In this document: positions 3,714-15,456 of the stretch, one piece after another
Layout of the letters: every line of letters begins with the position of its first letter
Position numbering within the stretch: position 1 is the first letter of the stretch
IMG/VR virus record: IMGVR_UViG_3300042987_002768
Location: 1 to 28,274 of that record
Length of the DNA: 28,274 nucleotides
DNA from: a virus
Direction: 5' to 3' (one strand)
Notes under the pieces: model-generated
Told to the model about the DNA's origin: nothing
Databases searched by the model: none
Seen by the model: the letters and a program-made list of their open reading frames with translations, nothing else
Made by a program: the position numbers and the translations under genes

Positions 3714-3953
3714 ATGGACAAAGAAAAACTCAAACTGATTGTGAGAAATCTTGAATCTCTTGTAGAATGTTTAAAGTCTGAAATTTATTCGGACATAGAT
3801 TCATATAAACACGAATCACAATATGAAGAAATTGCACCTTATATTGAGGATTATGATGAAGTGTTTTATGATGATGAGGATGATGTGTTTGAAACTGTAA
3901 GAGTAAATCAAAAATATAAATTAACAAATGACGATGATGGAGATGGACTGTGA
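3714..3953 (+). CDS. Acidic hypothetical protein (79 aa)
   Basis: An N-terminal helix (EKLKLIVRNLESLVECLKSE) is followed by a strongly acidic tail (YDEVFYDDEDDVFETV and DDDGDG). It could be a DNA-mimic or protein-binding peptide, but there is no direct evidence for that. The stop overlaps the GTG start of thyX by 4 bases. It is the first gene after the intrinsic terminator at 3651-3679, so it probably begins a new transcription unit. Confidence 0.65.
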   Translation: MDKEKLKLIVRNLESLVECLKSEIYSDIDSYKHESQYEEIAPYIEDYDEVFYDDEDDVFETVRVNQKYKLTNDDDGDGL

Positions 3954-11728: not shown

Positions 11729-12559
11729 ATGCCCTCAACAAAGTCAGTATCTCAAATAAAATCAATTCTATTAAATCCAGCATTAACTTCACATTTTGAA
11801 GTTGAGATTACACTTCCCAGTAATAAAGATAGGGATTTTGGAAATTTTTTAAGTTTTTTGAGTGATAATGGTCTTGTATATGATCAAGGTAAATTAAATT
11901 TACTGTGCTCCGAAGCATCATTACCGGGTTCTTCTCTTACGACACACGAAATTACAAATGATTATCACGGCGTAACAGAAAGACACGCATATCGTAGAGT
12001 TTATGATGATCGTATTGATTTGACTTTTTATGTTGATGCTGATAATTATCTACCAATTAGATTTTTTGAGAATTGGTTAAAGTGGATTTCAAATGAAAGT
12101 ATTGCATCAAAACTTGGGGGACCAGTAGGAACAAAATATCCCCATTACTTTTATAGAATGAGATATCCAAAAGATTATAAAACTGATGGAATGAAAATTA
12201 CAAAATTTGAAAGAACAGGAACTGAAGGGGCATATAGTGGATCAAAACTAACATATGGTTTTGTTGGAGCATATCCAATTTCTATTTCTTCTATGCCAGT
12301 TTCTTATGATGCATCTTCATTATTGAAATGTACAGTATCTATGACGTATCTAAGATACTTTGTTTATCCAACAACGAAAAAAGAAGAAGAAAATAAAGAT
12401 ACTAGAGAAACACCACGAAGTACCGTAACACCAAGAACTGGAGACCCATCTGCACCAGCACCAGCACCAGCACCAGCACCAGCACCAGCAACTACACCTA
12501 CAGGACAAGGACAAGGACAAGGACCAATATCAATACAAGGTATTCCTTTTAGACCATAA
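11729..12559 (+). CDS. Baseplate tail-tube initiator-like protein (gp54 type)
   Basis: The 276-residue protein has a tail-tube-type beta fold by appearance: LNLLCSEASLPGSSL, then RIDLTFYVDADNYLPIRFFE and a late LTYGFVGAYPISISSMPVSY, comparable to T4 gp54 segments such as GCIPISVSAPELSYD. The last ~50 residues are low complexity, with (AP)n and GQGQGQG. It is divergent from gp4 and starts the rightward late baseplate block. A tube protein (gp19-type) is the alternative, but its location away from sheath and portal genes favours the initiator. No Shine-Dalgarno sequence is seen. Confidence 0.62.
   Translation: MPSTKSVSQIKSILLNPALTSHFEVEITLPSNKDRDFGNFLSFLSDNGLVYDQGKLNLLCSEASLPGSSLTTHEITNDYHGVTERHAYRRVYDDRIDLTFYVDADNYLPIRFFENWLKWISNESIASKLGGPVGTKYPHYFYRMRYPKDYKTDGMKITKFERTGTEGAYSGSKLTYGFVGAYPISISSMPVSYDASSLLKCTVSMTYLRYFVYPTTKKEEENKDTRETPRSTVTPRTGDPSAPAPAPAPAPAPATTPTGQGQGQGPISIQGIPFRP
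12452..12490 (+). repeat. GCACCA hexanucleotide tandem repeat (coding)
   Basis: About 6.5 copies of GCACCA encode an Ala-Pro linker at the end of the tube-initiator-like protein, directly followed by a shorter GGACAA repeat encoding Gly-Gln. Such arrays are prone to slippage, so linker length may vary among strains. Confidence 0.85.
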
Positions 12560-12603: not shown

Positions 12604-13323
12604 ATGCCTTTACCAAAGATTTCCACACCAATTTACGAACTTGAATTGCCTTCCAGTGGACAAGTAATTCAATACAGACCATTCTTAGTTAAAGAAGAAA
12701 AAGTATTAGTAATTGCCTTAGAAAGTGAAGATACAAAGCAAATCACAACAGCAATTAAAACAGTTATCAAAAACTGTATTCTCACCAAAAATATCAAGGT
12801 AGAAAATCTTCCAACTTTTGATATTGAATATCTCTTTTTAAACATTCGCGGAAAGTCCGTTGGTGAAGAGATAGATGTAAATGTGATATGCCCAGATGAT
12901 GAAGAGACTAATGTATTGGTTAAAATTAACTTAGATGACATTAAGGTTCAAAAAAGTGATGACCACAGCAGTCAAATTAGAGTTGATGATAATATTATGA
13001 TGGAATTAAAATATCCATCATTAGAACAATTTATTAAGACAAATTTTGATTTCAATAATAATGTTGCAATGGATCAGTCATTTGATTTGATTGCTTCTTG
13101 TATTGATAAAATTTATACTGAAGATGAAGTATGGGTTTCTGCAGACGTAACTAAAAAAGAACTGATTGATTTCTTAGAGCAGATGAACTCTTCGCAATTC
13201 AAAGAAATTGAAAAGTTTTTTGAAACGATGCCAAGACTTTCTCATAAAGTAGAAGTTACAAATCCAAAGACTGGAATAAAATCTGAAGTTACTTTAGAAG
13301 GGTTAGCAAATTTTTTCGCATAG
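12604..13323 (+). CDS. 26: gp26, baseplate hub or tail-assembly chaperone subunit
   Basis: The 239-residue protein matches the T4_baseplate family (gp26, PF12322) in layout. It opens IYELELPSSGQVIQYRPFLV, continues KEEKVLVIALESED and FDIEYLFLNIRGKSVGEEI, and ends in a helical region. T4 gp26 is needed for hub assembly with gp51 and the tape measure gp29. Its last codons contain T TTT TTC (13311-13317), from which a -1 shift would fuse it to the next ORF. A weak AGGA ribosome-binding site precedes the ATG. Confidence 0.8.
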   Translation: MPLPKISTPIYELELPSSGQVIQYRPFLVKEEKVLVIALESEDTKQITTAIKTVIKNCILTKNIKVENLPTFDIEYLFLNIRGKSVGEEIDVNVICPDDEETNVLVKINLDDIKVQKSDDHSSQIRVDDNIMMELKYPSLEQFIKTNFDFNNNVAMDQSFDLIASCIDKIYTEDEVWVSADVTKKELIDFLEQMNSSQFKEIEKFFETMPRLSHKVEVTNPKTGIKSEVTLEGLANFFA

Positions 13324-13334
13324 CACTTGTTTAT

Positions 13335-13508
13335 ATGGACCTAGAGAATTATTTTCGTTTAAATTTCGCTTTGATACAGTATCATAAATATTCTTTATGG
13401 GAGATAGAGTCATTAATACCTTGGGAAAGAGACATTTATGTAGAACTCTTAAAACAACACTTGGAAGAAGAGAGACTAAAACAGCAAAATGGCAATCAAT
13501 CCTTCTAA
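13335..13508 (+). CDS. Small gp51-position protein, possible frameshift extension of gp26 (57 aa)
   Basis: The 57-residue acidic-basic peptide reads MDLENYFRLNFALIQYHKYS, then LWEIESLIPWERDIYVELLK and a helical end. The W-x-(I/V)-E-x(2)-PW-E-R pattern is reminiscent of the small second products of tail-assembly chaperone genes. It has no Shine-Dalgarno sequence. Its frame is open upstream to the slippery heptamer at the end of gp26, so it could be made as a gp26 fusion, alone, or both. T4 gp51 is much longer, so I give no symbol. It overlaps the next ORF by 20 bases. Confidence 0.65.
   Translation: MDLENYFRLNFALIQYHKYSLWEIESLIPWERDIYVELLKQHLEEERLKQQNGNQSF
13383..13390 (+). promoter_or_regulatory. 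Late-promoter-like box CATAAATA inside the small ORF
   Basis: The NATAAATA match lies 98 bases before the start of the large tail protein at 13489. An internal late promoter would allow the large tail proteins to be made in excess over gp26. Single short motif, unproven. Confidence 0.35.
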
Positions 13509-15456
13509 ACTACTAAGACTTAAACCAATCAGGGCTACAATTACTGCGTCTAGTTTAAGAGGTTTATCTGCTCCTGTTAAACCCAAAATTACTGCATCAC
13601 AAATTTCATCTTCTTCTGTTGTAGCAAATAAGCAAGTTTTAGAAATTCAAAATTCTCTTGTAGAAATTGTTAATATCCTAAAGGCACAAAATAAGTTTTT
13701 AAAAGATACCTCCGAAAAAACAAGAAAAACTGAGGAAGCAAAAAGAAGAGCAGATGTAGAAGAAAACCTTGAAAAAAGAACAGGTGTATTATCAAAAGCT
13801 GCAGAGAAAATATTATCTCCAGTAAAATCACTGCTAGACAAAATCATTGATTTTATTCTTGCAGTTTTTATTGGAAGAGCACTTATCAAACTTATTCGGT
13901 GGTTTAGTGATCCTCAAAATAAAACTAAGATTAGAAGTCTTTTTAGATTTTTAGGAGATCATTGGCCAAAGTTACTTGCACTTTACTTGAGATTTGGAAC
14001 AGGTCTTGGTAGATTTATTGGGGGATTATCATCTTTACTGATTAGAGGTACTTTAAGAATTGCTCAAGCAGCAGCAGGATTAGCAGCAAGAGCAGGATTA
14101 AAAGGTGCTGGTAAAGTTGCTGGATTTCTTGGTGGAAGATACGGAAAAGCATTGGCAGTTGGACTAGAGGTTGGTACAACTGTTGCTGGCACAATGGCCT
14201 TATCAAAAGGTATTGAAAATTTTGCAGGTCTTAATAATATTGATACCAAGGTGCCTAAATTTGCAGGTGGAGGACTTGCAAGATTTAAGAACCTTTTTGG
14301 ATTTTTTGGTGGTGGTCCTGGGCACGTATCTGGGCAAAAAGGAGTAGATAAAATCCCAGCAATGTTAAGTGATGGTGAATTTGTGATGTCTCGTGGTGCA
14401 GTTCAAAAATATGGTGTGGGTACTTTAGAGGCAATGAATGCCGCTGGTGGTGGAACTAATAGACCAAAAATTGTTAATGGAACTGCTTATGCTGCTGGTG
14501 GTGGATTTTTATCTTTTAATCCACTTGAAAAGTTATTGAGAATTGGCAGTTCCACGCCTAGAGAGGGGGAACGATATGGACCACCAGTGCCACCATTTGA
14601 TAGTAGAGCATATACTTCAGCACTAACATCATCTGCTTCTAAACTGATGAACCAACAGTGGAGTTATGCTTCTCAGGGTGGTGATCCTAGAGTTGGTTGT
14701 GCTCCTGCAATTAATGAAGTTTATAGAAAGGCAGGATTATCAATACCTTGGAGTTCTGTTAAAAGGATAAATTATGTTCCGGATATCTATCAATCTTTAA
14801 GTAAATCATTTGTAAAAATTACTGAACCCAAAAGAAATCCTGGTGACATTGTAATATGGAAAGATAGTGGATATCCTGCTGGTAGTGGTAAAGATCCATA
14901 TGGTCATATTGGAATAGTAATGCCGGGAGGAAAAATAGCAAATAATTCATCAACAAAGGGCACATTTACAAATTTAAATACACCTAATGATGCCAGATCT
15001 TGGTGGCCTCATACAAAAGAATTGCTATATTTTAGACATCCTAAAGTTCATCAGTCTCTTATTGGAGAAAAACAGACAAAACCTGAAAAAAATCAACCTT
15101 CTTCTCAATCAAGACAATCAAGATCATCCCCATCAATACTTCAAAGATTGGCATCAGTTTTTATGCCTCCTGCTCGTGCAGATGGAGCAAGATTTAGTGG
15201 TGGACCTGCACCAAATACAACATCAAGGCCATCAACACCAATGGTAATTTCAGCATCAACCGCAAAATCAAGGAATGCATCCAAAACATCGGTGTCTCCT
15301 CCAATGAATTTTATGCCAGAAGTTGTTTATGAAGTTGAGCAACCAAGACAAAAGGTAGCAACTGGAGCATCTGGCAACCCAAGAGTTCCTTCATTTAGTG
15401 TATCATATGCAGGTGGAAATGCAGAAAAAAATGCTACTATTTACGGAATAGGATAA
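13489..15456 (+). CDS. Large tail protein with CHAP/NlpC-like cell-wall hydrolase domain (655 aa)
   Basis: Domains in order: a flexible start with INPSKLL; a coiled-coil-like region (~45-100); a hydrophobic segment at ~115-136; an Ala/Gly-rich hydrophobic region at ~160-240; a tape-measure-associated block (GVDKIPAMLSDGEFVMSRGA, 285-304); then a CHAP or NlpC/P60-type hydrolase with Cys404 (VGCAP), PGDIVIW (451-457) and His473 (GHIGIV). The tail is Ser/Pro-rich. It probably acts in the tail, as tape measure or hub, and cleaves peptidoglycan during entry. It shares its N-terminal plan with the next gene. A distinct gp29 homologue was not recognised in the window, so this pair may cover that role. 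Confidence 0.7.
   Translation: MAINPSKLLRLKPIRATITASSLRGLSAPVKPKITASQISSSSVVANKQVLEIQNSLVEIVNILKAQNKFLKDTSEKTRKTEEAKRRADVEENLEKRTGVLSKAAEKILSPVKSLLDKIIDFILAVFIGRALIKLIRWFSDPQNKTKIRSLFRFLGDHWPKLLALYLRFGTGLGRFIGGLSSLLIRGTLRIAQAAAGLAARAGLKGAGKVAGFLGGRYGKALAVGLEVGTTVAGTMALSKGIENFAGLNNIDTKVPKFAGGGLARFKNLFGFFGGGPGHVSGQKGVDKIPAMLSDGEFVMSRGAVQKYGVGTLEAMNAAGGGTNRPKIVNGTAYAAGGGFLSFNPLEKLLRIGSSTPREGERYGPPVPPFDSRAYTSALTSSASKLMNQQWSYASQGGDPRVGCAPAINEVYRKAGLSIPWSSVKRINYVPDIYQSLSKSFVKITEPKRNPGDIVIWKDSGYPAGSGKDPYGHIGIVMPGGKIANNSSTKGTFTNLNTPNDARSWWPHTKELLYFRHPKVHQSLIGEKQTKPEKNQPSSQSRQSRSSPSILQRLASVFMPPARADGARFSGGPAPNTTSRPSTPMVISASTAKSRNASKTSVSPPMNFMPEVVYEVEQPRQKVATGASGNPRVPSFSVSYAGGNAEKNATIYGIG

Follow-up and report, generated by a model that had tools for sequence, protein, structure and literature searches.

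The locus considered here raises a simple question: are gp26 and the small open reading frame that follows it, annotated as gp51 in relatives, two genes for two proteins, or one gene for two forms of a protein? It lies in a 28,274-base viral fragment (IMG/VR record IMGVR_UViG_3300042987_002768, positions 1 to 28,274; hereafter, the window), for which a first-pass annotation had proposed a -1 frameshift joining gp26 to the small frame. The proposal is supported by conservation and by homology to T4 gp51, and is very probably right: with high confidence, on comparative grounds, we regard the gp26/"gp51" pair as one gene decoded two ways, into a short and a long tail assembly chaperone. The site, the frame, their conservation, the homology of the fusion to T4 gp51 and the chaperone-like fold of the N-terminal domain were all established by comparison; slippage itself, its rate and its role in assembly are what we infer.

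The locus and its candidate slip site

The tail genes of the window are arranged in the T4-like order, as in marine cyanomyoviruses, with a tail-tube-family gene, gp26, the 57-codon frame and two large tail genes following each other. The tail-tube-family gene, in the gp54/tail tube position directly upstream (11729..12559, +), matches phrog_45 (E 4.6e-34) and PF23849 (E 5.4e-14); near its 3' end, an Ala-Pro run is encoded by a short CAGCAC repeat (12450-12495). The gp26 gene (12604..13323, +), encoding the 239-residue putative short form (TAC-N, the "G" role), matches the PF12322 T4_baseplate (gp26/gp51) family with an E value of 9.5e-75 and a score of 251.5 bits, versus a curated cut-off of 24.5, and phrog_150 with an E value of 5.7e-80. 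This is the one gp26-type match in the window, which, being a 28 kb fragment, leaves room for a second copy elsewhere in the genome. The large gene downstream (13489..15456, +; 655 residues) has weak matches to tail-length tape measure PHROGs (best E 7e-5), and its position suggests that it likely encodes the tape measure or a hub protein. No tRNA genes were found in the window, NCBIfam contains no family for gp26 or for the small frame, and a sequence search of the PDB with gp26 and T-domain profiles returned nothing meaningful.

The 3' end of gp26 reads AAT TTT TTC GCA TAG, with the slippery heptamer T TTT TTC (13311..13317, +) set in the gp26 phase as X XXY YYZ, and with the zero-frame stop TAG (13321..13323, +) one codon past it; the heptamer is thus in phase for tandem -1 slippage, as had been noticed in the first pass. 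The -1 frame is already open 33 nt upstream of the gp26 stop and, past the slip, would be read as CGC ATA GCA CTT GTT TAT ATG and onward until TAA at 13506-13508. The extension so encoded, the putative T domain (gp51 in cyanophage annotation), spans 63 codons and the TAA (13317..13508, +), matching phrog_634 (E 1.9e-26) and positions 231-281 of phrog_150, so that the earlier estimate of a stop-free fusion of about 301 residues holds exactly (238+63 = 301). The predicted junction peptide is SEVTLEGLANFFR followed by IALVYMDLENYFR, the latter beginning before the ATG of the 57-codon frame, and the short form ends in ...ANFFA. A Pfam scan of the T domain gave chance-level matches only; one member had a match to DUF6760 at E 0.11.

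It is the ATG of the small frame (13335..13508, +) that invites the alternative, as public records annotate this frame as a gene of its own. The two proteins would then be separate, gp51 being translated from ATG 13335 by coupled reinitiation and the heptamer being incidental, and the ATG 12 bases past the gp26 stop in the window, found at this codon in 74 of the 80 close cyanophages as well, speaks in favor of this. However, no Shine-Dalgarno sequence is present in the 20 bases before this ATG (TTCGCATAGCACTTGTTTAT), just as the first reading had it, and further evidence against separate proteins, described below, makes this explanation improbable in our view. ATG 13335 is probably internal to the T domain rather than a real start, and, since the small frame does have an ATG there, low-level independent initiation may occur in the window.

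Taken alone, in a single sequence, the arrangement of the heptamer is mildly unusual and not decisive: the window ORFs of at least 75 residues contain 77 in-phase XXXYYYZ heptamers, and two genes among them have a -1 reading that continues for at least 20 codons beyond the stop. The second of these, with in-phase heptamers (A AAT TTA at 772), belongs to the pair at 548-784 and 784-1143, where the continuation is probably just an ATGA-type gene overlap. What makes the gp26 site more than chance is not the single sequence but its conservation among relatives.

Conservation of the probable frameshift signal

To collect relatives, IMG/VR was scanned with five gp26 queries (from the window, HTVC008M, phiN3, ValKK3, and LPCS28), isolate records were added, and 189 loci with a traceable gp26 3' end, Ackermannviridae excluded, were retained, down to about 30% identity; these form 39 groups at 70% identity and 16 groups at 40%. 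An in-phase T TTT TTC/T, lying within the overlap of the two frames, is kept in every group at both levels (39/39 and 16/16), as T TTT TTC in 31 of the 39 and as T TTT TTT in the other 8, while the control, other Phe-Phe pairs in the same genes, shows T TTT TTY in 3 of 38. Given the amino acids and the codon usage, and taking the groups as independent, such codon choice would arise by chance in every one of the 39 with a probability of about 10^-18. Among the 80 close cyanophage sequences, synonymous sites within the heptamer do not vary at all (TTT in 80/80, TTC in 80/80), while Phe codons are mixed elsewhere, and the synonymous-conservation profile, in five-codon windows, has its maximum on the heptamer. 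Such constraint is not expected of an incidental heptamer followed by a separate gene. The zero-frame stop may follow TTC at once or come one or several codons further on, and the heptamer and the -1 frame are joined in all relatives despite the varying distance of the stop.

Also with respect to separate proteins, no ATG occurs among the 14 opening codons of the -1 frame in 90 of the 189 relatives, and 60 lack any of ATG, GTG or TTG there; in these 60, therefore, the T domain could hardly be made except by frameshifting. The record of ACG-2014b (L229, 1911-2092) has a T domain with no ATG start that is entirely unannotated. The first-pass annotation had named a broken heptamer, or a stop separating the frames, as the observation that would speak against a frameshift, and none was found in the 189 loci outside Ackermannviridae. 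One locus marked as an exception by the automatic pass (L093) was rejected as such, as it has the same site base for base.

The frame-joining site is also present in the isolates S-SM2, P-SSM2, HTVC008M, phiN3, Cronobacter phage LPCS28, vB_VmeM-32, and ValKK3, and it is intact in the further isolates PX29, ACG-2014b, S-SZBM1, SynMITS9220M01, and jumbo vibrio phage 2.275. Two Pootjesviridae sites read T TTT TTG (RHph_I34) and T TTT TTC (OLIVR5). Thus, with the isolates examined later, all frame-joining sites are intact except in Ackermannviridae-like records, and the sequence sign of frameshifting is conserved in all but one family of relatives.

Two other explanations are addressed by the same data. 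One is that an indel in the T run, introduced by sequencing or assembly, split a single in-frame gene, homopolymer runs being prone to such errors. This is refuted, to the degree that we attach almost no probability to it, by the recurrence of this frame relation across 189 independent contigs and numerous finished isolate genomes produced in different laboratories. The other is that RNA polymerase, and not the ribosome, slips, adding or dropping a U in the T run, so that the long form would be translated from an edited mRNA. Transcriptional slippage occurs on T or A runs, and the site consists of six to eight consecutive T, with TTTTTTTT in the Pelagibacter phages. However, the commonest form is six T and a C (the C being invariant across the cyanophage set, 80/80, and present in 31/39 clusters), which is short for efficient slippage of this kind, tandem tRNA slippage requires the register that is seen (a T from the codon before, followed by TTT TTC), and in most relatives the stop lies within about one codon of the slip site. 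We thus consider an origin in transcription quite unlikely, and ribosomal -1 frameshifting remains the preferred reading.

T4 gp26 and gp51 as paralogues

T4-like phages had been cited in the first-pass annotation as having separate gp26 and gp51. As to the number of genes in T4, this stands: in T4 and RB51, gp26 (208 residues) and gp51 (249-250 residues) are encoded on opposite strands, and therefore no frameshift can join them. What does not stand is the notion of two unlike proteins, gp51 being a gp26 paralogue with an extension. Both proteins match PF12322 over its length (in RB51, E 1.9e-63 for gp26 and 3.5e-54 for gp51), while the C-terminal extension is found in gp51 alone, the T-domain profile matching T4-type gp51 with E values of 3e-8 to 3e-12 and matching no gp26. 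The fusions predicted for the frameshift loci align end to end with T4-type gp51, unbroken through the junction. The -1 product corresponds by homology to the C-terminal portion of T4 gp51, a continuous protein that comprises both parts. The residues encoded from the slip site up to the ATG are conserved too and have their homologues in T4 gp51, which speaks against two separate proteins.

By sequence comparison, then, T4 gp51 is a gp26-like domain plus the domain called "gp51" in cyanophages, and thus T4 uses two genes where the other relatives examined use one. In a tree of the common domain, T4-type gp26 and gp51 fall together on one branch (97/94). This is consistent with a single duplication in the T4 branch; long branches underlie some of the joins (RB16 and Aeromonas gp26), making the order of the paralogues in the tree uncertain. 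In RB16 (L219, 2501-3794), the gp51 and gp26 paralogues stand in tandem on one strand, directly after gp54, possibly an intermediate step from a frameshift locus to genes on opposite strands as in T4.

Fold and proposed mechanism

A chaperone role is also suggested by the predicted fold. The AlphaFold2 model of gp26 is a confident one (pLDDT 84.6), and VIA-align of residues 1-96 against the PDB gives 3fgx (Z 8.1), 2ob9 (7.9), 3klu (7.3), and 5ir0 (5.2), the next match falling to 2.7. Of these, 2ob9 is the HK97 tail assembly chaperone and 3klu is YqbN; 3fgx and 3klu are members of the XkdN-like chaperone family. Foldseek alone gave no significant match against the PDB, the best tail assembly chaperone (HK97) being at E 0.84. 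As modeled, the N-terminal domain of gp26 has the tail assembly chaperone fold, recognized by structural alignment and not by Foldseek alone. For T4, both gp26 and gp51 are counted among the hub assembly chaperones; of the two, gp51 is needed for assembly yet absent from the virion (PMC3004832).

The mechanism most likely to generate and employ the two forms is, by analogy, of the lambda gpG/gpGT type. The majority of ribosomes would terminate at TAG 13321, producing the 239-residue short chaperone. A minority would move one base backward at T TTT TTC, with both Phe tRNAs re-pairing on TTT TTT, and resume reading in the -1 frame, producing a long form of 301 residues that is extended by a helical T domain. 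If the analogy with gpG and gpGT extends to assembly, the short form, in many copies, would coat the tape measure protein, a few long forms would recruit tail-tube or baseplate-hub subunits, and both would depart afterwards. T4 and its close relatives obtain these two forms from duplicated genes, gp26 providing the short one and gp51 the long one.

A candidate stimulator in cyanophages

One additional element may assist the slip in a single lineage. A hairpin that showed up in single folds, and for which pairs were then counted and synonymous codons shuffled under constraint, is positioned 10 nt past the heptamer (13328..13341, +), and in close relatives it has 5 bp and a four-base loop, as in GGUCC AUAU GGACC. 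Pair counting over 29 sequences finds 88% of cells paired and 16 of them double-changed; the covariation score exceeds that of each of 500 shuffles and falls sharply when the hairpin is slid by one column. Of 75 distinct sequences, 40 have all five pairs, versus 26.5 +/- 2.3 after reshuffling of synonymous codons (0/2000 as high), a result that is suggestive but not proof, because the shuffle keeps the amino acids and not the relatedness. In the window, the hairpin is degenerate, with four of the five pairs (G-C, U-A, and two G-U), unstable, and with a fold z-score of 0.05; RNAalifold predicted no consensus pair on the whole junction alignment, and the hairpin is not seen in single folds of the more distant relatives, outside the cyanophage clade. 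It is thus a candidate stimulator of the cyanophage lineage, outside the core signal. In cyanophages (L001-L090), the annotated gp51 ATG sits in the loop and the 3' arm of the hairpin, which may perhaps explain why an ATG is so common there.

The Ackermannviridae site

Phages resembling Ackermannviridae (loci L088 at 3727-3744, L182-L199, L224, L225, and L228) also have the T domain in the -1 frame behind a PF12322 gene, and the open stretch of the -1 frame ahead of the stop can be as short as 9 nt. All 19 of 19 Kuttervirus-like loci, and KN2-1 as well, have GAR ATT TTC AT(T/C) TAA at the site, and Kuja and K474 have CTT TTT; none of these sites contains a canonical XXXYYYZ heptamer, and therefore a single-tRNA slip on T TTY, or some other mechanism, has to be assumed. 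In the Kuttervirus-like loci the T domain also has no start codon. A non-canonical slip is implied by these sequences.

A scheme for the whole family can be outlined, tentatively and with more doubt than conviction, in which the long form of PF12322 proteins was ancestrally made by frameshifting, which was lost once through the duplication in the T4 branch, while cyanophages gained the hairpin and the site moved in Ackermannviridae (ATT TTC, CTT TTT).

Comparison with known systems

For annotation, the consequence is that "baseplate hub assembly catalyst gp51" should be corrected to the C-terminal portion of the second gp26 form, not a stand-alone protein, in cyanophages and in the examined T4-like phages infecting Vibrio, Rhizobium and Pelagibacter. 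The conserved slip site may also serve as a ready natural reporter of frameshifting in cyanobacteria. For the losses of start codons, the hairpin and the Ackermannviridae site, we found no description in the open literature, most subscription papers being outside the scope of the search.

Lambda gpG/gpGT, whose slip site is G GGA AAG, is the classical model from which the present system differs in its slip site (T TTT TTC) and in having a contractile tail with a T4-like baseplate. T4 gp26 and gp51 resemble the present system in being homologous to it, as a short and a long version of one chaperone, and differ in being encoded by two opposite-strand genes with no frameshift. This also offers a simple explanation for a 2016 review (PMC5009743) that exempts T4 from the G-T frameshifting otherwise conserved among long-tailed phages: T4 uses two genes, a point that can be checked by sequence.

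The nearest precedents are the T4-like chaperones themselves. According to PMC12846349, poly-T slip signals in T4-like chaperone genes were described by Vladimirov, Gautam, and Davidson (2022, Virology 566:9-15), and, according to PMC10885494, the same study has other T4-like phages carrying one short and one long gene. As far as these two accounts of it go, the core result, that T4-like phages have frameshift chaperones, is already published and the phage of the window is a further member: the protein families (gp26/gp51) and the short/long architecture are the same, and only the phage is new here. Another close parallel is the chaperone locus of Vandenendeviridae and Andersonviridae (PMC12846349), which has a conserved -1 shift at a poly-T site and, as here, a downstream frame mis-annotated as a separate gene; it lies ahead of the tape measure gene, of which the large downstream gene of the window is a likely counterpart. 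It differs in its GTTTTT motif and belongs to another phage lineage.
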